Shown here: one piece after another, positions 464 through 36,996 of the stretch | Layout of the letters: each line of letters opens with the position of its first letter | How positions within the stretch are numbered: the first letter of the stretch is position 1 | Virus record (IMG/VR): IMGVR_UViG_3300037325_000237 | Coordinates: 1-37,104 of that record | From: a virus | Reading direction: 5' to 3' (one strand) | DNA: 37,104 nt | The notes under the pieces: generated by a model | Told to the model about the DNA's origin: nothing | The model's database searches: none | The model's input: only the letters and a program-made list of their open reading frames with translations | Made by a program: the position numbers and the translations under genes

Positions 464-760
464 ATGGAAGTGAAGTTCGCAAGCGACGATCTGGCGCGGA
501 TATGCACAGATGAAGCTCATAAACTCGGCTTGCCAGTTTCGGTAATAAAAGCAGCGCGAAAAACGTTGCTAAAACTCGAGGCTGCGACGTTCGAGAGCGA
601 CCTCTTCTGCCTGGGGGGGCTGGATTATAAAATCCGGAAGGGAAGCGACGATGACACAAGGCAAGTTCGAGTGAACAAGCAATACAGAATTTTCTTCACG
701 GTTTCTGGCGAAGGCTCCAGTGCTGTAGCAACTGTTACCTATATTGGCGACCCACACTAA
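464..760 (+). CDS. higB: HigB/RelE-like toxin
   Basis: A 98-aa protein with the size and pattern of the HigB branch of RelE/ParE toxins, ribosome-dependent mRNA interferases. Residues 49-80 carry the usual core: a Gly-Gly-Leu turn, then a basic strand around Arg67, Arg69 and Arg75 leading into a hydrophobic strand (RIFFTV). These correspond to the conserved QxSIRVNxQYRI-type region of the family. A GGAGT ribosome site lies 5 bases before ATG. The antitoxin gene follows after 12 bp, and toxin-first order is the hallmark of HigBA systems. The toxin would arrest translation if the antitoxin is lost, which could stabilise the prophage or respond to other phages. Confidence 0.85.
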   Translation: MEVKFASDDLARICTDEAHKLGLPVSVIKAARKTLLKLEAATFESDLFCLGGLDYKIRKGSDDDTRQVRVNKQYRIFFTVSGEGSSAVATVTYIGDPH

Positions 761-772
761 GGAGGGCACTTA

Positions 773-1927
773 ATGAGCATCGCATCAATGTTAAATGAGA
801 TCCCTCATCCGGGAGAATTCATTCGTGATGAACTGGAGGCCCGTGGGTGGGCCCAGCGTGATCTTGCTTACATTTTAGGGGTAAAGGAGCAGGCGATTAA
901 CCCTATTATGTCGGGCAAGCGTGGCGTCAGTCCCGATATGGCTCAATCATTATCGAAGGCTTTTGGAATATCCGCAGAGTATTTCCTAAATCTTCAAAAG
1001 GCGTATGAGCTTTCGACTGCACGGGAAGCCGATCCTGCAATCGAGCGGCGAGCTAAGTTACAAGCCAAGTACCCGATCCGTGAAATGATCAAGCGGACAT
1101 GGTTTGAGGACACGTTCGATATATCGCTGCTGGAAGCCCAAGTTATGAGGTTTTTCGGTACAAACTCTCTCGAGCAGGTTCCTGGGCTGGCGCATAATGC
1201 AAGGAAGGGCAGCGACTATTCTGAGACAACGTGTCTTCAATGGGCGTGGTTGTATCGGGTCAAGCAGGTCGCGGAAGAAGTGGTGGTCCCGGCTTATTCT
1301 GAGAAGAAGATGCGGGAGGCCTTAGTTGATCTGGAGCGTTATCTAGCTGACCCAGAGGAGATTCGACATATTCCTCGGTTACTCGCTGAAGCAGGTGTGC
1401 GATTTGTCGTTGTAGAGACCCTACCCAAAGCAAATATAGACGGAGTTTGTTTCTGGTTGGATGGGAAGTTCCCTGTAATTGGAATGACTTGCAGACACGA
1501 TAGGATCGACAACTTTTGGTTCGTTTTGCGGCACGAGATTGAGCATCTTTTAAATAAGGATGGTCAGAAGGATCACTTAACGTCTGCGAGAGTAGATGTT
1601 GATCTTGATCCTGAAGCTTTGGATCTACCTGAAGAGGAAATGATTGCCAATCGGAGTGCATCTCAATTTTGTGCAGACCAAGAAGCGTTAGATTCATTTT
1701 TGATCCGCAAGTACCCTTATATGGCTGAGAAAGATACTCTCGGCTTGGCGCGGCGGCTCCAGAGGCATCCCGGTATTATCGTTGGTCAGCTGCAATACAA
1801 GATGTCGACTCAGTACAACGTCAACAAGTATAATTGGCTCACTAGGCACAAAATTAAAATTCGCCAATTTCTTCATGGATCAGCGGTTATGGACGGTTGG
1901 GGCGACCCCGTTCCTATAAATCTTTAA
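773..1927 (+). CDS. higA: HigA-like antitoxin fused to ImmA/IrrE metalloprotease domain
   Basis: A 384-aa two-domain protein. Residues 10-75 are an XRE-type helix-turn-helix with the HigA signature (PHPGEFIRDEL, then QRDLAYILGVKEQAINPIMSGKR). Residues about 200-330 form an ImmA/IrrE-type zinc peptidase: HEIEH at 254-258 matches HExxH, and the EExxxAN stretch near residue 288 fits the third metal ligand. Ordinary HigA antitoxins are about 100 aa, so this is a long fused form. It probably neutralises the upstream toxin and represses the operon through the HTH; the peptidase may trigger turnover of a regulator under stress, as ImmA does. GGAGG lies just before the ATG. The next gene follows after 10 bp. 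Confidence 0.87.
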   Translation: MSIASMLNEIPHPGEFIRDELEARGWAQRDLAYILGVKEQAINPIMSGKRGVSPDMAQSLSKAFGISAEYFLNLQKAYELSTAREADPAIERRAKLQAKYPIREMIKRTWFEDTFDISLLEAQVMRFFGTNSLEQVPGLAHNARKGSDYSETTCLQWAWLYRVKQVAEEVVVPAYSEKKMREALVDLERYLADPEEIRHIPRLLAEAGVRFVVVETLPKANIDGVCFWLDGKFPVIGMTCRHDRIDNFWFVLRHEIEHLLNKDGQKDHLTSARVDVDLDPEALDLPEEEMIANRSASQFCADQEALDSFLIRKYPYMAEKDTLGLARRLQRHPGIIVGQLQYKMSTQYNVNKYNWLTRHKIKIRQFLHGSAVMDGWGDPVPINL

Positions 1928-1937
1928 GGAGAGCGAC

Positions 1938-2408
1938 ATGGCGAACTATAAAGAGCAATTGCAAAAAATTTGGCATGAATACGAAGCTGAACATGGGGCT
2001 GTACCTGCTACTGCGCGGGAGGCTGTTGCTTGGGGTGTAACTAAGGGTATGATCGATATTCCCGAAGTTGATCCTTTGGATAAGCTGGCCAGCGACATGT
2101 CCACGGCGCTTCGCGAAGAATACGCAAAGGACAAGAGCGGAAGGCGGTATCGGGTCAATCACGCAGTTCGTGTTACCAAGGGAGGTGTCCAATACACCTT
2201 CTGGGCAATTATGAAGGATGCGCCGCGAGAGCATATGCAAAAAGCATTTATTCAACGACGGGAGCAGATTGTTGGTGATTGCGTGCAGCTAGACACGGAT
2301 GTAGCCGCTTACAATTCCTTTCACGAGGATCAGAAGCCGATCCAAATGCTTTTTGACTTTAGGGATGATTTGATTGAACGCAACCTCGGCGATGAGCGTG
2401 CGGCTTAG
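1938..2408 (+). CDS. Conserved third gene of the HigBA-ImmA cluster
   Basis: A 156-aa acidic/basic mixed, soluble protein with no membrane segment. It begins with a helical segment rich in Lys/Glu, has a central YRVNHAVRV strand pair, and ends in a conserved-looking block containing RREQIVGDC and FDFRDD. I recognise the overall pattern as a conserved hypothetical family that I have seen downstream of HigA/ImmA-type genes, but no activity is known to me. It has a good AAGGAGAG ribosome site and starts 10 bp after the antitoxin gene, so it is almost certainly in the same operon. It could be an accessory or third component of the toxin-antitoxin unit, or an independent defence effector. Confidence 0.7.
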   Translation: MANYKEQLQKIWHEYEAEHGAVPATAREAVAWGVTKGMIDIPEVDPLDKLASDMSTALREEYAKDKSGRRYRVNHAVRVTKGGVQYTFWAIMKDAPREHMQKAFIQRREQIVGDCVQLDTDVAAYNSFHEDQKPIQMLFDFRDDLIERNLGDERAA

Positions 2409-2413
2409 GATTC

Positions 2414-2665
2414 TTGACCGATCTCACGGCAATTCCTGACCACACAATCTGGCTTGAGTTTACGTGCAATCGTGTAGTGCCGGTGCCTGTGTCTGGCGCA
2501 CCGGCCGGTTGTCTTACGGTGGACGATTTGCGCCACGTGGCTCGATGCTCGAAGTGCAACGCCAAGGTAAAGGCAGGAGGGTATGGGGTACGGATCGCCT
2601 GGTCATTGGCTGGTCATCGAGATGATTTAGTTGCAAACGTAGAGGCAAGCGATCAGTCGCGATAG
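2414..2665 (+). CDS. Small Cys-containing (zinc-ribbon-like) protein
   Basis: An 83-aa reading frame that begins with TTG five bases after the preceding stop. It contains a CSKC pair (residues 41-44) and two earlier cysteines, and a pattern of hydrophobic strand, DDLRHVARC and a Gly-rich turn, which resembles small alphaproteobacterial zinc-ribbon proteins. The TTG start lacks a strong ribosome site, so translation may be coupled to the upstream gene. Its 3' end overlaps the 3' end of the convergent nuclease gene by 13 bp. Function unknown. Confidence 0.5.
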   Translation: MTDLTAIPDHTIWLEFTCNRVVPVPVSGAPAGCLTVDDLRHVARCSKCNAKVKAGGYGVRIAWSLAGHRDDLVANVEASDQSR

Positions 2666-3441
2666 TTCCTTATCGCGTCCTGGTTGAGTTTTTTCGCAGG
2701 GACAAGGCGATAGTGCCGCTCCTCAACGACCTTAATCTCGTCGTCCTGTAGGGTGAGCTCAAACAGAGCAATAATCTCATCATCCATGAACTGCGCGGCG
2801 ATAGCACGGCATCGCATTCCAGGGAACTTGTCTTCAACAAAGCGGATATCTTGGGAGATTTGGACGATACCAATCTGATCCTTTCCACCTTTGGCCTGAA
2901 CGGGAATGACGTAATGGCAGCCCCTTTTGTCAAGCCCGACATAAAGCTCGTCGATCTCGATTTGGCCAATGCCTTTCACAGTCGTGCGTAAGTGGTTCTG
3001 TAGACTGTAAGTCGTTAGACCAAGGAAAGTGTCGATCAGCCTATTATACCTGACGATAGCGAGAAGAGCTTGCTCATCATCCAACGCATACGCGCGGATC
3101 AATTCTGGGGTCGCATCCGGGATGTCGATCCTCACAAGGTCCTCACGAGGCAGGACACGATTGAATTTGACAAGACGAAACCTGTAAACGGCCGTCCCGG
3201 CAAGCTCGATTACCCACTCCATACCTTCAGGCTGAGTCTTGATAATAACCTCTGGTAAGGCGACCCTAAACCGATACGAGTAAAGCACATCTCCCAAGTT
3301 CTTCGGTAATTTGATGTTTAGCGCTACGGCAGCGGCTTCAATATCCGTACGCGCAAATGCGAGTTCGGTTTCCCCGTCTCTGTAACGATCAAGGAAGATC
3401 TTCTGGATAAGAGCGCCATACCGATTGGGGATTTTAGCCAT
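2653..3441 (-). CDS. Predicted type II restriction endonuclease, PD-(D/E)xK-like
   Basis: A 262-aa protein from the ATG at 3441, chosen because it overlaps the methyltransferase stop (ATGGCTAA), which favours translational coupling; a longer frame to 3516 would lie inside the methyltransferase gene. Residues 162-184 have EIDE, an intervening strand and VQAK, which fits a PD-(D/E)xK nuclease core in which Gln replaces the usual acidic residue before the Lys. The remainder is alpha/beta without transmembrane segments. The position directly behind a cytosine-5 methyltransferase on the same strand makes it the cognate restriction enzyme. Recognition sequence unknown. A role as another type of nuclease partner cannot be excluded. 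Confidence 0.72.
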   Translation of the reverse strand: MAKIPNRYGALIQKIFLDRYRDGETELAFARTDIEAAAVALNIKLPKNLGDVLYSYRFRVALPEVIIKTQPEGMEWVIELAGTAVYRFRLVKFNRVLPREDLVRIDIPDATPELIRAYALDDEQALLAIVRYNRLIDTFLGLTTYSLQNHLRTTVKGIGQIEIDELYVGLDKRGCHYVIPVQAKGGKDQIGIVQISQDIRFVEDKFPGMRCRAIAAQFMDDEIIALFELTLQDDEIKVVEERHYRLVPAKKLNQDAIRNYRD

Positions 3442-4765
3442 GAGCGACCATCGCAGCGTTGAGTTCTTCTTCGATTTCTTCTTGTTTCCGTTTTGTCGCC
3501 CCACTCTTCCGATCACGTCTGCTCGGTGGGGTCTGCACCCCGAAATGCCTCGACGCCTGGGAGAGGTCGAGCTTCAAAAGTCTGGCGTCGCCGAGAGTGA
3601 TAGTTTTGTTTGGTCTCGATGGCGAAACACCAAGAGCTTCAATAATTTTGGCAGCGATCACCCTAGCCAAAGGCGGAGGAACGGCATTCCCAATCTGTCG
3701 TGCTCCATGCCATTTTGTAGCATTAAGCCTGAACCAATCGGGGAAGCCGTGCAGCCTTGCCATTTCGCGCACGGTTATACAGCGGGCATAGCGATAGTGG
3801 ATAGGACGCGGGCTGGTGAATGCCCCCCTGGCCCCATCTGTTCCTGCCCGAAGCGTATTCGAGACGCCGCCGCTCGGAAGCCTGAAAAAGCGGCTTATTG
3901 GCTCAACGGTTCCTTCCTCCGTTTGATGAAACCGCCTTCTCGAAATTTCAGTGTGTACTGTTCGAGCGCTAGAAGTGAGTACACTGGGTTCCCACTCCCG
4001 CACATATCCAAAATGCCATGCATCGTTCTTAAGGCAACGTAGCTCAGTTGCATACTCAGATGGATCGCCAAACCGGGCTGTTTTGACAGCATCATTTGCG
4101 CTGAGAGTCTCGAAGGTATCTGCGTCAGGGAGGTCGCCGATCGCATCGGCACACGATGGTCCAAAATCTAATTCCGGGTAAAGCTTTGGTCTTCCTGAGA
4201 TGTTTGTTTTTGGCGCTGGATAGTCGGGAAGCACATTGCCCTTTTTCACACCCATCAGAATGAAGCGCTCACGCGATTGCGGAGTGCCAAAGTGAGCCGC
4301 ATTGAGTACTTTCCAGGGCAAGCGGCATTCGTACCCTGCCTGATCGAATGCTTTTACCAATTCTTTTAAGAATGCTTGGTGTTTTCCAACGGTAAGTCCT
4401 TTGACGTTTTCAAAGACGAAACTCTCAGCATCTAGCTCCCGCACAAGTCGAACAAAATCCAGAACGAGTTTGTTACGCGGATCGTCGAGCACGCGATGGC
4501 CGATCAGTGAAAATCCTTGGCAAGGCGCTCCACCGAAGACGCAATCAATTTTACTGTCGATTAAGCCTGCGCGCTTTCTGATTTCACTGCCTGAGAGGTC
4601 CGCTACCGACGCGGGAATCACAGTCGCGTCAGGGAAATTGAATTCGTGAACAGCGCAATGTACGGGGTCGATCTCAACAGCGGCTTTCACATCGAAGCCT
4701 GCCTGTTCGAAGCCGAGGCTCAAGCCTCCTGCACCTGCAAATAGGTCGATGCCGATTGGTCTCAT
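3434..4765 (-). CDS. DNA (cytosine-5)-methyltransferase of a type II R-M system
   Basis: A 443-aa enzyme that transfers a methyl group from SAM to C5 of cytosine. The classic motifs appear in order: FAGAGG at 9-14 (SAM binding), PCQGFS at 81-86 with catalytic Cys82, ENV at 119-121, QSRER at 163-167 and GNAVPP at 359-364. The target-recognition region lies between about 180 and 320. The C-terminal 65 residues are a basic/acidic extension beyond the usual end. The nuclease gene overlaps its stop by 8 bp. An inverted repeat over the presumed -10 suggests self-regulation. Its job is to protect host and prophage DNA against the partner nuclease. Confidence 0.93.
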   Translation of the reverse strand: MRPIGIDLFAGAGGLSLGFEQAGFDVKAAVEIDPVHCAVHEFNFPDATVIPASVADLSGSEIRKRAGLIDSKIDCVFGGAPCQGFSLIGHRVLDDPRNKLVLDFVRLVRELDAESFVFENVKGLTVGKHQAFLKELVKAFDQAGYECRLPWKVLNAAHFGTPQSRERFILMGVKKGNVLPDYPAPKTNISGRPKLYPELDFGPSCADAIGDLPDADTFETLSANDAVKTARFGDPSEYATELRCLKNDAWHFGYVREWEPSVLTSSARTVHTEISRRRFHQTEEGTVEPISRFFRLPSGGVSNTLRAGTDGARGAFTSPRPIHYRYARCITVREMARLHGFPDWFRLNATKWHGARQIGNAVPPPLARVIAAKIIEALGVSPSRPNKTITLGDARLLKLDLSQASRHFGVQTPPSRRDRKSGATKRKQEEIEEELNAAMVAHG

Positions 4766-7849: not shown

Positions 7850-7893
7850 AGCTGGGCGGAATGCCTGGCGCGCTTGCATATCGGGAGGGGCCC

Positions 7894-8763
7894 ATGAGCC
7901 ATGACGCGACAAACTGGGCGATAAAGCAGCGTGGACTTAAGCCTGCGACTAAGCTGTTGCTCTGGCAGCTTGCCGATCGGCATAACAAAGACAGCAGGCG
8001 CTGTGATCCTTCGCAGGATGGCTTGGCCTATGACACCGAGATGCACCGTGCATCCGTGAACCGTCATCTGGACGAGCTAGTGGCGCGTGGCCTGATCCGA
8101 AGGATTGTCGGCATCGATCCTCGCACCAAGCGTCAGCAGCGCACGGCGTACATTTTGGGTTGCGACACTGACCTCTCTGTTCCTGATTTACCCCCAGAAG
8201 CCGTGTCGCAAAATGCGACACGGGATGAAGCCGAAGCCGTGTCGCAAAATGCGACACGGGCCGTGTCGCAAAAAACGCCCGAGCCGTGTCGCAAAAATGG
8301 CGATAGCCGTGTCGCAAATTGCGACACTAACCTTGTAAGAGAACCAGTAATACAACCAGACGCGCCTGCGGCCGCTGGTGGCGGTGTTTTTGATTTCGAT
8401 GATTTCTGGGATGCTTTCCCCAATCGGGTTGATCGCAAATTCGCAGAGGCGGCTTGGGATGTGGCGCTGGATGCCGGTGCCGACGCGTCCGAGGTAATCG
8501 CTGCCGCTCGGTCCTATGCTGGCTCTGATGTGGTCAAGCGCGGTTTCCCGAAAAAGCCCCAGAATTGGCTTGCTGCTGAAAACTGGCACGACGCGGCGAC
8601 GCCTGCGGTGGCTAAGAGCCTGCCGGAAGTTCCCACCGCTGTGGCCGATATCATTTCGGGCAATCCCGCGCGGTGCCGCTCGATCTCCGCAACCAAGGCG
8701 CGCGAGTTCATCGCCGCTGCCCTGGTAACCCAATCTCAATGCCAAGCTGTAGGTGTCCTGTGA
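7894..8763 (+). CDS. Replication initiator-like protein (lambda O-like role)
   Basis: A 289-aa protein from the ATG at 7894 (ribosome site GGGAGGGG). Residues 1-90 are a winged helix-turn-helix with the pattern KPATKLLLWQLADRHN, then QDGLAYDTEMHRASVNRHLDELVARGLI, typical of phage and plasmid replication initiators. Residues 104-142 are a low-complexity linker with repeated VSQNATR-type units, encoded by an array of GTGTCGCA repeats that is probably the origin itself. The C-terminal part (FDDFWDAFPNRVDRK...AAWDVALDAGADASEVIAAARSY) is the domain often seen at the end of such phage proteins, with Trp-rich helices. The initiator would bind its own gene and recruit host helicase; no helicase or loader gene is seen. 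Confidence 0.8.
   Translation: MSHDATNWAIKQRGLKPATKLLLWQLADRHNKDSRRCDPSQDGLAYDTEMHRASVNRHLDELVARGLIRRIVGIDPRTKRQQRTAYILGCDTDLSVPDLPPEAVSQNATRDEAEAVSQNATRAVSQKTPEPCRKNGDSRVANCDTNLVREPVIQPDAPAAAGGGVFDFDDFWDAFPNRVDRKFAEAAWDVALDAGADASEVIAAARSYAGSDVVKRGFPKKPQNWLAAENWHDAATPAVAKSLPEVPTAVADIISGNPARCRSISATKAREFIAAALVTQSQCQAVGVL
8160..8328. repeat. Iteron/palindrome array inside the replication gene (putative origin)
   Basis: The octamer GTGTCGCA occurs five times forward (8203, 8239, 8263, 8286, 8309) and its complement TGCGACAC four times (8161, 8214, 8250, 8320). Two units are perfect palindromes with arms CCGTGTCGCA and TGCGACACGG around AAA (8201-8223 and 8237-8259); a third has GTGTCGCAA and TTGCGACAC around one A (8309-8327). 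All lie in the linker of the initiator gene, as the lambda origin lies in gene O. Confidence 0.8.
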
Positions 8764-9041
8764 GCCCATCAATCCATTCCGACGTGAAAGCCAACGGGAC
8801 GCGCTTTGGCGATGCCTACGTGACCGTGGACGAGGAGGCGGGGGACGCGGTCCTGGTCGTTGATGTCGTCGGCATGCGCCTGCAGAAGCATCGCTACCAC
8901 TCGCTCGAGGAAGTCGTTGCCGCCCATGCCGCCCAGCGCGGTCGGGCTGCCTACGATCATGTGGCTCGGGATGTGTGCTCGGCTCTGTCCTATGCTGGCA
9001 AGCGGTTGCGCGGGTCGATCGAAACCAAGGCCCAGCGCTGA
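8760..9041 (+). CDS. Small early protein, unknown function
   Basis: A 93-aa protein starting with GTG that overlaps the TGA of the replication gene (GTGA). It has a beta-rich first half (RFGDAYVTVDEEAGDAVLVVDVVG) and a helical second half with basic ends. The following gene overlaps its stop by one base. It is part of the replication-recombination operon but I do not recognise it. Confidence 0.62.
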   Translation: MSPSIHSDVKANGTRFGDAYVTVDEEAGDAVLVVDVVGMRLQKHRYHSLEEVVAAHAAQRGRAAYDHVARDVCSALSYAGKRLRGSIETKAQR

Positions 9042-11739: not shown

Positions 11740-12039
11740 ATGTCGCAAAAAACTACTTTTGAGTGGCCGAAAAACTCCATTTCGTTTCGTTTTGGATTTT
11801 TGGTGTCTTGGTGCTGGCGTCATAGCCTGCGGCCTTTTGCGTGGCGTTTTAAGTTCGAGCGCGGCTCTTATCGCTACTTTCAAAACGAAATGACCGGCGA
11901 TCGCAAAGCGAAATGGATCGGTGCTGGATACTCCCCCGTCGACACCGATTGGCTTCGTTCTGCTCCGAGCGGCTCCGCCTGGTTCATTGCACCTTTCGTC
12001 GGTCGCGTTGATCTGGTCGCGGGAGGCAGCGTTGTCTGA
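11740..12039 (+). CDS. Small basic/aromatic protein, unknown function
   Basis: A 99-aa protein rich in Trp, Phe, Tyr and Arg. The central section (FKFERGSYRYFQNEMTGDRKAKWIGAGYSPVDTDWL) reads like a compact beta structure and is the best sign that the frame is real. The ATG has no obvious ribosome site. The stop overlaps the TTG start of the ParB-methyltransferase gene. Not recognised; it could assist DNA modification or packaging by position only. Confidence 0.5.
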   Translation: MSQKTTFEWPKNSISFRFGFLVSWCWRHSLRPFAWRFKFERGSYRYFQNEMTGDRKAKWIGAGYSPVDTDWLRSAPSGSAWFIAPFVGRVDLVAGGSVV

Positions 12040-13423
12040 TCTCATCCTGCCGTCCAATATCGAGCTCATCGCTCCGTCCGATCTGGTCGCCTTCTCTCGC
12101 AATTCGCGGACCCACTCTGACGAGCAGGTTCTGCAGATCGTCGCCTCGATCCAGGAGTTCGGTTTTACCAATCCGATCTTGATCTCTGGCGATGGCGAAA
12201 TCATCGCCGGCCACGGCCGCGTCCTGGCTGCCGAGCGTTTGGGCATGGCCGAGGTTCCGTGCCTGCGCTTGTCCCATCTTTCGGACGAGCAGCGCCGCGC
12301 CTATGTGATCGCGGACAACAAACTTGCCGAAAACGCCGGCTGGGACAAAGAGCTGCTGGCGCTTGAGCTGGGCGAGCTGCGCGACCTGGGCTTTGGCATC
12401 GATGTGATCGGCTTCTCGAAAGACGAGCTTGAGCTGCTGTTCCTGGACGGCGACGATATCGACGGCGAAGGCAACACCGACGACGACGCGGTTCCTGATG
12501 CCGGCGACGGCTATGTCTCGTCTGAGGGCGATGTCTGGGTTCTTGGCGATCATTTGGTGATGTGCGGGGATTCCACCGTGGAGAGCGACTTCTCCGAGCT
12601 GATGGGTTCCGAGCTGGCTGACCTTTGCTGGACCGATCCGCCCTATAATGTGAATTACGAGGGCTCGGCCGGTAAAATCAAAAATGACCACATGGAAGGC
12701 GGGGCGTTTCGTCAGTTCCTGCTCGACTGCTTTGGGCTGGTCGCGTCCTACCTGCATGCCGGCGCGAGCTGCTATGTGGCGCATGCCGATACCGAGGGCC
12801 GGTCGTTCCGTGGGGCGTTCCAGGACAGCGGGTTTAAAACCTCCGGCTGCCTGGTCTGGATCAAACCTTCGCTTGTCCTGGGCCGGTCCGACTATCAGTG
12901 GCAGCACGAGCCGATCCTTTATGGATGGAAAGAAGGCGCGGCGCATCGCTGGTTTGGCGGTCGGAAGCAGACCACGGTTCTGAATGCCGAGGCGGCTCCC
13001 TTCGTGGTGACGGCTGACGGCGCTGTCGAAATCGACACCGGCGAGACAACGCTGCGCATCTCTGGGTCCGATTTGAAGGTGGAGGAGCTGGTCGGCTCCG
13101 TCATCCGGCATGAAAAGCCGCGCAAGAGCGGCGAGCATCCGACGATGAAGCCGGTCGGTCTCATCCTGCGCATGCTCAAAAACAGCTCGCAGCGCGGCGA
13201 CATCGTGCTCGATCCGTTTGGCGGTTCCGGCTCGACCTTGATCGCTGCGCAAAAGAGCGGCCGGCGCGCGCGCCTGATGGAGCTGGATCCGCGTTTCGTC
13301 GACGTGATCGTGCGGCGCTGGCAGGAGTGGTCTGGTCTTAAGGCGCATCTGCGCAGTTCGGGCGAAAGCTACGATGCGTTGGCGGCGAGCCGGGGCGAGC
13401 GGAAAGCGGCGGCTGATGGCTAG
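12032..13423 (+). CDS. ParB-like domain fused to DNA methyltransferase
   Basis: A 463-aa fusion with a TTG start, chosen for the GGGAGG ribosome site five bases upstream and for overlap with the previous stop. Residues 1-85 are a ParB/Srx-like domain with GEIIAGHGR at 55-63. Residues 165-440 are a DNA methyltransferase with TDPPY at 201-205 before FGGSGST at 396-402; that motif order marks a beta-class N6-adenine or N4-cytosine enzyme. Between them residues about 314-358 form an acidic beta-rich insertion before the HEKPRKSGEHPTMKP segment. Such fusions are frequent beside terminase genes in alphaproteobacterial prophages. Likely role: modification of phage DNA before packaging, for protection or marking. 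Confidence 0.9.
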   Translation: MSDLILPSNIELIAPSDLVAFSRNSRTHSDEQVLQIVASIQEFGFTNPILISGDGEIIAGHGRVLAAERLGMAEVPCLRLSHLSDEQRRAYVIADNKLAENAGWDKELLALELGELRDLGFGIDVIGFSKDELELLFLDGDDIDGEGNTDDDAVPDAGDGYVSSEGDVWVLGDHLVMCGDSTVESDFSELMGSELADLCWTDPPYNVNYEGSAGKIKNDHMEGGAFRQFLLDCFGLVASYLHAGASCYVAHADTEGRSFRGAFQDSGFKTSGCLVWIKPSLVLGRSDYQWQHEPILYGWKEGAAHRWFGGRKQTTVLNAEAAPFVVTADGAVEIDTGETTLRISGSDLKVEELVGSVIRHEKPRKSGEHPTMKPVGLILRMLKNSSQRGDIVLDPFGGSGSTLIAAQKSGRRARLMELDPRFVDVIVRRWQEWSGLKAHLRSSGESYDALAASRGERKAAADG

Positions 13424-35605: not shown

Positions 35606-36814
35606 TTAATCGATGGAACGGAGCTGCACGACATTACCTTCGGTCGTGCGGCCGGTAACAAAGTCTGCCCATAGCTGCATGACGGCGCGGCGCTTCTCGA
35701 GCATATCCGATCGGGCGTAGGTCCGCTCCACCGTGTTGCCGATCGTGTGCGCCAGTATGGTCTCCGCGACGTCAAAGCTAGTTGCGTCGGTGTCCTGCAC
35801 CCAAGTCCGAAAGCTGGTGCGGAAGCCATGCGGGCGGCCGGGTTCCTTCATTCGGTTGAGCACCTTTTCGATCGCTACGTCTGTGATGCCGTTGCCACTT
35901 CCCTTGCGCATGCCAGCAAAGACGAGCTCATCGTTAATCTCTGCCATCTGGTCGCGGATTCGAATCGCCTCATCCGATAGGGGGACGCGGAAGTCAGCTG
36001 TCTTCCCCTTGCGGCCTTTCATGCGCGCGGCTGGTACCGTCCACACATCGCCTGGCATCTCGTCAAATCGTGCACCGCGGCATCCACCGCTCCGGACCAG
36101 CGTGAGGATCATAAATTGGAGCGCCTTCGCGCCGGTGCCGCCGTTCTCGAGCTGCGCATAAACTTCGGGTATCCTCTGCCATTCCGTCGCGGCAAAAGGC
36201 ACCGCCTGGTGGACGTGCTCGCCCAGGTGCTGCAGCGCTATCTCGATCGTTTCTTCGTGGCAGTCGATGCCCATGCGCCGGCATCGTTGAAAGACGATCC
36301 TGGTCCGATTTACCGCCTTGATCGCTGTCGGGTGTTTCGTGTGCCAAATCGGCCGGATCACGTTGGCGAGCTCGATCGGCTTGATGGTCGAAATCTTGCG
36401 CCGGCCAATTTTCGGGATCACGTGACCGGCGAGGGGGCTCAACCAGCGGCCGGCCTTTCCGTCGTCCTTCAGCGTCGCCTTGATCATCTTCAGAACGCGC
36501 TGGGCGGCTTCTTCAAATGTCGGATCGTCGAGGTTCGCCTCGGCCGTCGCGGCGTCGCGTTCAACCTGGCGAGTGTCGATCGGATCGGAGCCGGCAGCGG
36601 CAACGGCCGCCCATCGGTCGCGTTCCTTGCGCGCGGCCGCGAGGCTCATATCGGGGTATGATCCGAGCCCCATGTCGCGTCGCCTGGTCTGGAATTGGTA
36701 GCGGTAAACCCACCGGCCGGAATCGCCTTTCTTGAGCAAGAATAGGCCTCTGCCGTCAGCTAGTTTGCCGTCGCCTGCATTTTTAATTTGTATCGCTGTG
36801 ATTTGTTTAGCCAT
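35606..36814 (-). CDS. int: Integrase, tyrosine recombinase (P4-like, DUF4102 N-terminus)
   Basis: A 402-aa site-specific recombinase. Residues 1-75 are the DUF4102 arm-binding domain (GDGKLADGRGLFLLKKGDSGRWVYRYQFQTRRRDMGLGSYPDMSLAAARKER). The catalytic half includes LTLVRSGGCRGARFDEM, KGRKGKTADFRVPLS, HGFRTSFRTW with the HxxR pair, LAHTIGNTVERTYARSD with the conserved His and the nucleophile Tyr. It would join the phage attP to the tRNA-Thr gene. The start lies 14 bp from the first arm-type repeat at the right end, so binding of integrase to its arm sites could also control its own transcription. Confidence 0.94.
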   Translation of the reverse strand: MAKQITAIQIKNAGDGKLADGRGLFLLKKGDSGRWVYRYQFQTRRRDMGLGSYPDMSLAAARKERDRWAAVAAAGSDPIDTRQVERDAATAEANLDDPTFEEAAQRVLKMIKATLKDDGKAGRWLSPLAGHVIPKIGRRKISTIKPIELANVIRPIWHTKHPTAIKAVNRTRIVFQRCRRMGIDCHEETIEIALQHLGEHVHQAVPFAATEWQRIPEVYAQLENGGTGAKALQFMILTLVRSGGCRGARFDEMPGDVWTVPAARMKGRKGKTADFRVPLSDEAIRIRDQMAEINDELVFAGMRKGSGNGITDVAIEKVLNRMKEPGRPHGFRTSFRTWVQDTDATSFDVAETILAHTIGNTVERTYARSDMLEKRRAVMQLWADFVTGRTTEGNVVQLRSID

Positions 36815-36978: not shown

Positions 36979-36996
36979 CCTCGTGCGGCACCAAAA
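36979..36996. repeat. Right attachment core (attR)
   Basis: An exact 18-bp copy of the tRNA 3' end and following A residues, without the rest of the tRNA. Host DNA resumes after it. The 108 bp that follow contain an inverted repeat TGTCAG/CTGACA, perhaps part of the original tRNA terminator, and no complete gene. Confidence 0.93.

Follow-up and report, generated by a model that had tools for sequence, protein, structure and literature searches.

What does a dense array of 8-bp half-sites do inside a protein-coding gene? The window analysed here, a whole virus record of 37,104 bp, has nine copies of the half-site GTGTCGCA within 167 bp at positions 8161–8327. The array is very probably the replication origin of a temperate tailed phage, situated inside its own initiator gene in the manner of the lambda ori and gene O. 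This is based on PHROG matches of the gene product to 'replication initiation' and 'O-like' families, with no other replication gene recognised among the ORFs scanned, on the resemblance to lambda of the array position, iteron spacing and AT-rich tract, and on half-site bases that follow residues of the protein's own helix.

The probable prophage and its gene context

The record looks like an integrated prophage. Genes recognised in the window include those for terminase, portal, baseplate and tail proteins, and an integrase gene is found at 35606–36814. A tRNA gene (positions 49–121) is the sole match in an Rfam scan of the record. An 18-bp direct repeat of the tRNA 3′ end, CCTCGTGCGGCACCAAAA, is present at 110–127 and again beyond the integrase gene at 36979–36996, and these are the probable attL and attR; the record thus appears to cover an integrated prophage about 36.9 kb long. 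Within the att sites there is a low-GC island at 464–4765 (about 48–53%), which contains a HigB-like toxin gene and an HTH regulator, a possible antitoxin, as well as a C5-cytosine methyltransferase gene that overlaps an unmatched ORF (2653–3516), possibly its restriction partner.

The ORF next after the initiator gene (8673–9041) is without a PHROG or Pfam match, and is followed by a Holliday-junction-resolvase-like gene and then by a methyltransferase gene. A DNA methyltransferase of the N6_N4_Mtase type, encoded at 11921–13423, has a weak ParB_N-like domain at its N-terminus, which is under the Pfam cut-off. PHROG and Pfam searches recognised no lambda-P-like helicase loader gene beside the initiator gene, and no helicase, primase, polymerase or second initiator was recognised among the other window ORFs scanned. 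GC skew shows no turning point at the array, because most genes have the same direction.

The initiator gene and its predicted protein

The array lies in a plus-strand gene at 7894–8763. The longest ORF begins at 7861, and the probable start is the ATG at 7894 (MSHDATNWA), the MSH start being kept in relatives. The initial annotation took the product to be a replication initiator, and the PHROG profiles bear this out: phrog_270, a replication initiation family (1.2e-30), and phrog_345 and phrog_391, both 'replication initiation O-like' (E 1.9e-19 and 5.3e-14). Pfam HTH_36 (PF13730) is matched with 47.8 bits (cut-off 25), and 68/68 aligned relatives match it also.

An AlphaFold2 model, built with these 68 relatives, predicts a winged-helix DNA-binding domain at residues 1–90 (7894–8163, plus strand), with pLDDT of about 93 or more and with winged-helix matches in the PDB. 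The predicted recognition helix, residues 52–64 (8047–8085, plus strand), is placed by the AlphaFold2 secondary structure and by covariation with the half-sites. A linker at residues 103–162 (8200–8379, plus strand) is predicted to be disordered, with pLDDT <50 over most of its length, and is encoded by the main array (8203–8327) and the AT-rich tract. It is followed by a C-terminal helical domain, residues 168–234, and a C-terminal tail (8395–8760, plus strand). The array is therefore positioned between the DNA-binding and C-terminal domains. Profile phrog_9327, 'primosomal protein', matches the C-terminal half (ORF residues 163–251), and the C-terminal domain is possibly the partner-binding part.

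A PDB sequence search with the initiator found no replication initiator, and a PDB profile search found winged helices of the MarR/SlyA type. Foldseek and VIA-align comparisons with the PDB gave nothing decisive: generic winged helices, DnaD-N among them, and two entries titled initiator and DNA-binding-protein N-terminal domain. In a viral library the matches were for the most part unnamed phage HTH proteins, with a single 'putative replication protein O' among them.

The half-site array

The nine copies of GTGTCGCA form three palindromes, two direct singles and one inverted single, and they start at 8161(−), 8203(+)/8214(−), 8239(+)/8250(−), 8263(+), 8286(+) and 8309(+)/8320(−). Nine half-sites within 170 bp had been annotated initially, and the count is correct. 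The accompanying tally of three palindromes and two direct singles is right for these elements, but sums to eight and misses the inverted single at 8161. Elsewhere in the 37,104-bp record GTGTCGCA occurs once; 1.5 copies are expected in the whole record, and the observed number was reached in 0/100 dinucleotide shuffles.

Palindromes have perfect 8-bp arms separated by a 3-bp A/T spacer. An outlying single half-site (8161–8168, minus strand) precedes two palindromic iterons of the form GTGTCGCA-AAA-TGCGACAC, at 8203–8221 and 8239–8257. Core iterons 1 (8263–8270) and 2 (8286–8293) each consist of a left half-site alone on the plus strand, with a pitch of 23 bp to the next, and core iteron 3 (8309–8327) is a palindrome that adjoins the AT-rich tract. 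Thus, three of the five iterons are inverted repeats, core iterons 1 and 2 being without a right arm. Start-to-start distances of the five are 36, 24, 23 and 23 bp. All of these sites are about 270–430 bp into the initiator gene, and there is no full site near the gene start.

The 23-bp pitch puts the last three iterons in three codon phases, which are read as VSQK, PCRK and RVAN. The half-sites are indeed in the initiator linker, as first described, although VSQNATR, given there as the linker repeat, is encoded by two copies only, other readings being VSQK, PCRK and RVANCDT. Synonymous recoding of the same protein, carried out 20,000 times, yielded 1.08 copies on average and no more than 6 in any trial, compared with the 9 observed, and the array is thus not a mere by-product of the protein. 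The transcript of the array (8150–8370) folds far better than shuffles (z = −5.0), as expected from the palindromes, and this is possibly relevant to translation.

The AT-rich tract

An AT-rich, easily melted region lies directly beside the last iteron. It is a probable unwinding element (8328–8360), as judged by the stability profile, tandem 12-mers and codon bias in relatives. The 12-mers, TAAGAGAACCAG and TAATACAACCAG, are at 8336–8359, and the least stable 30-bp stretch of the gene, at the 99th percentile of the record, starts at 8326. In relatives, two TAANNNAACC units exactly 12 bp apart are present in 122/150 arrays, and 57/64 protein-found genes have two units of the TAANNNAACC type. 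Codon choice in the VREP motif of protein-found relatives is extreme: Val is GTA in 55/55 and Arg is AGA or AGG in 51/51, compared with 3.5% and 5.6%, respectively, elsewhere in those genes. These statistics are limited to protein-found loci because the larger set was partly fetched with the AT-tract motif. No canonical DnaA boxes were found near the array, which counts against an origin, although the lambda ori is not known to need one.

Relatives share one architecture

By protein search, 76 loci were obtained; of those with a named host, most are from Rhodobacterales and Rhizobiales. DNA pattern scans added further loci, and the final set consists of 151 distinct winged-helix/array pairs. 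The best repeat pitch (range 12–39 bp) is 23 bp in 60/64 protein-found genes, loci fetched with the 23-bp pattern being left out of this figure; the same repeat is therefore read in all three codon phases across relatives. From the winged helix to the last iteron the linker varies from 31 to 109 residues, and the residues vary also. On the sequences compared, it is the DNA and not the peptide that is conserved. The initial annotation held that the repeat evolves as DNA and that the linker simply follows, and this is supported by the constant pitch, the three codon phases and recodings that reach at most six copies. It also suggested a comparison of relatives, and these do keep the DNA repeats over the whole range of linker lengths. 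The repeats, their fixed DNA geometry throughout the family and its independence from the peptide are thus directly established.

The order of elements in the family is palindrome (upstream, in many members), half-site, half-site, palindrome and AT-rich tract, and the core architecture is the same when protein-found loci are taken alone. At the two core half-sites a right arm is found in 1% of family arrays, a match no better than background, and at the last core iteron it is present in 99%. Conservation is strictest in the AT-proximal part of the array.

Plasmid pRA03 of Roseicitreum antarcticum (L266, a 104-kb record) has the same initiator and array, located beside nuclease and methyltransferase genes, and is possibly a phage-plasmid or carries a prophage.

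Half-sites covary with the recognition helix

Half-sites differ by lineage, and include GTGTCGCA, GTGTCTCA, GTGTCCGG, GTGTCCAG, GTGTCCAA, GAGTCCAG, ATCTCCGG and ACCGGCAA, among others. Their sequence tracks residues 51, 52, 53 and 57 of the predicted recognition helix of the initiator encoded by the same gene; in the window the specificity residues, taken from this covariation, are H51, R52, A53 and R57. With R or K at residue 52, base 3 is G in 139/139, and with I, V, N or E it is C in 12/12. An R at residue 57 is accompanied by TCA or GCA at bases 6–8 in 19/19 and an N by CAA in 9/10; V, T or S go mostly with CAG, and D, E or A mostly with CGG or CGA. Residue 57 is an imperfect predictor, as V is found with CAG, CGG or CGA.

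These associations recur across clusters defined at 75–80% identity. The counts include related sequences. Co-change was also assessed on a tree built without the helix, a procedure that reduces but does not remove the effect of kinship, assumes a single tree and parsimony, and ignores branch length. By this measure, 16 of the 37 changes in bases 6–8 share a branch with a change of residue 57, compared with 4.8 expected, and of the 95 columns this residue is the top-ranking one for these bases (nominal P 6e-7). Residue 53 is first for bases 6 and 7 taken singly and residue 52 for base 3; no helix residue stands out for base 8 alone. For bases 4 and 5, raw mutual information was disregarded, since variation at these positions is confined to four related sequences.

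A minimal pair is provided by a relative (L050/L172) whose protein is 89% identical to that of the window. It has 11 differences in residues 1–92, of which only H51S is at the helix, and each of its three core left half-sites has base 6 changed from G to T. A second relative (L049/L121) has seven differences from the window, and keeps both H51 and the G at base 6. Two named phages outside the discovery set also fit the pattern, LagS-V1 with SRATLNR/GTGTCTCA and RcKvothe with SVSSLND/GACTCCGAA. Within the pairs compared, the repeats and the predicted DNA-reading helix have changed together, i.e. they coevolved, and this is a direct result of the comparison. No published helix/iteron code, and no published structure of an O DNA-binding domain on iterons, was found in the literature searched, which covered few subscription papers.

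Some arrays are mixed. Three relatives (L002, L005 and L028) have GTGTCTCA in the core iterons and upstream arms that are still of the GTGTCCGG type, as if homogenisation had been incomplete after a specificity switch or recombination. In L050 the upstream palindromes look imperfect (coded VSQNETR/VSHNETR) and the three core left half-sites are all GTGTCTCA; the half-site switch seems complete only in the core.

Comparison with known origins

The lambda ori, with iterons ITN1–4 and an AT-rich region, is inside gene O, and the window array is likewise intragenic. Both genes have the iterons in their linker-coding part, and the likeness to gene O drawn in the initial annotation holds, the array being in a linker that AlphaFold2 predicts to be disordered, as in lambda. 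Iteron spacings are 20, 24 and 23 bp in lambda and 36, 24, 23 and 23 bp in the window. An A-rich iteron centre, repeats in several codon phases and a purine-heavy AT-rich tract directly 3′ of the last iteron are common to the two. Each lambda iteron is an inverted repeat of 18–19 bp, to which O binds as a dimer (PMC7466680, PMC6022878). The 'four plain iterons' ascribed to lambda at the outset are therefore a misreading, and palindromy alone does not distinguish the window array. A difference does exist in the conserved single half-sites: all lambda iterons are inverted repeats, whereas core iterons 1 and 2 of the window family are without the right arm in 99% of arrays. The Pfam HTH_36 protein, tandem 12-mers in the AT-rich tract and absence of a recognised P-like neighbour are also unlike lambda. 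The minimal unwinding unit of lambda is described as two iterons plus the adjacent AT-rich region (Dodson et al., 1986, cited in PMC7466680). This unit is AT-proximal, as is the strictest conservation in the window family.

Phages P22 and L have origins in gene 18, which is O-like, and their iterons differ, each matching the specificity of its own initiator; the phage L repeat is TGTCCAACGGA (PMC8022706). The window resembles these in having iterons within an O-like gene, and differs in host and half-site; the available part of that source describes no helix/half-site code. The Stx-phage origins P27 and 933W have six iterons in gene O, each an inverted repeat, with O acting as dimers, and a P27-derived plasmid no longer transforms once its iterons carry synonymous mutations (PMC7466680). 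Stx phages and the window both have more than four iterons in the initiator gene, and conserved half-sites at a 23-bp pitch are not described for the Stx phages in the accessible text of that report. Among plasmids, the HTH_36 proteins of Paracoccus yeei pYEE7 and pYEE8 have been assigned as the replication type of these small extrachromosomal replicons (PMC6209633), and plasmid pRA03 has an intragenic array, as in the window.

Other explanations of the array

The array might instead be an operator for autoregulation, at which the HTH protein governs the transcription of the operon that encodes it, whether or not the array is an origin as well. An autoregulator would likewise show covariation of its winged helix with nearby sites, and HTH_36 members are often annotated merely as HTH or regulatory proteins. 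However, the sites are well inside the gene, not at a promoter, and conserved AT-rich 12-mers follow the array in fixed register. As the PHROG profiles are those of replication initiators and the geometry is that of the lambda ori, an operator is unlikely. A partition (centromere-like) or DNA-packaging site is a still weaker candidate and very improbable. Partition systems also use clustered palindromes and repeats, but there is no dedicated ParA/ParB operon among the ORFs scanned, where the ParB_N-like domain on the methyltransferase (11921–13423) is weak, and it is with the replication protein's own winged helix that the sites covary.

In the initiator mRNA the inverted repeats could also form hairpins that control translation or antitermination, and the strong transcript folding (z = −5.0) would agree with this. 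Any palindromes fold strongly, however, two core repeats have no right arm family-wide, and a hairpin does not explain why the half-site sequence follows a DNA-reading helix; there is very little chance that this is what the array is for. Selection on the linker peptide, with the DNA repeats as a by-product, has in its favour the identical VSQNATR from two copies, yet it can be almost wholly dismissed. Other copies are in other frames, nine copies were never reached by synonymous recoding, and the pitch is constant while the length and residues of the linker, which is predicted to be disordered, vary.

A model for initiation and its significance

For an origin within the initiator gene, we infer binding, dimerisation, melting and helicase recruitment along the following lines. 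The N-terminal winged helix would read the GTGTCGCA half-sites where its own gene encodes the linker, and the covariation of helix and half-site is indirect support for such binding. Initiator dimers would occupy the palindromes, which fit dimer binding, and the two single half-sites, which keep the 23-bp register, might take up further subunits. Once assembled, this complex would open the tandem 12-mers of the AT-rich tract (8336–8359), and the C-terminal domain may bring the host helicase, directly or via a loader. Helicase delivery by this domain is suggested by analogy with lambda O and by the phrog_9327 'primosomal protein' match.

This would be an origin of a known kind, and what appears to be new, from sequence comparison, is the conservation of armless half-sites and a residue-level helix code. 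More generally, with about an even chance of being right, the family, mostly of alphaproteobacterial phages, may use one design (palindrome, half-site, half-site, palindrome and tandem 12-mers at a 23-bp pitch), in which two or three helix residues set the iteron via a simple code. Origin specificity could then switch when a single substitution is followed by the homogenisation of every iteron, and the armless half-sites would hold subunits in a directional assembly toward the melting region.

The reader, i.e. the helix, and the text, i.e. the iterons, are in one gene, and every relative is therefore a naturally matched pair. From about 150 of these a specificity code emerges that is directly testable, and two of them, H51/G6 and S51/T6, are near-isogenic. 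The code shows concretely how the specificity of an origin and that of its initiator can shift jointly. This question has been raised for lambda, P22 and phage L, and the literature searched gave no residue-level answer. The findings also provide a rule by which origins can be annotated in alphaproteobacterial phages that are uncharacterised, and in related plasmid-like elements.
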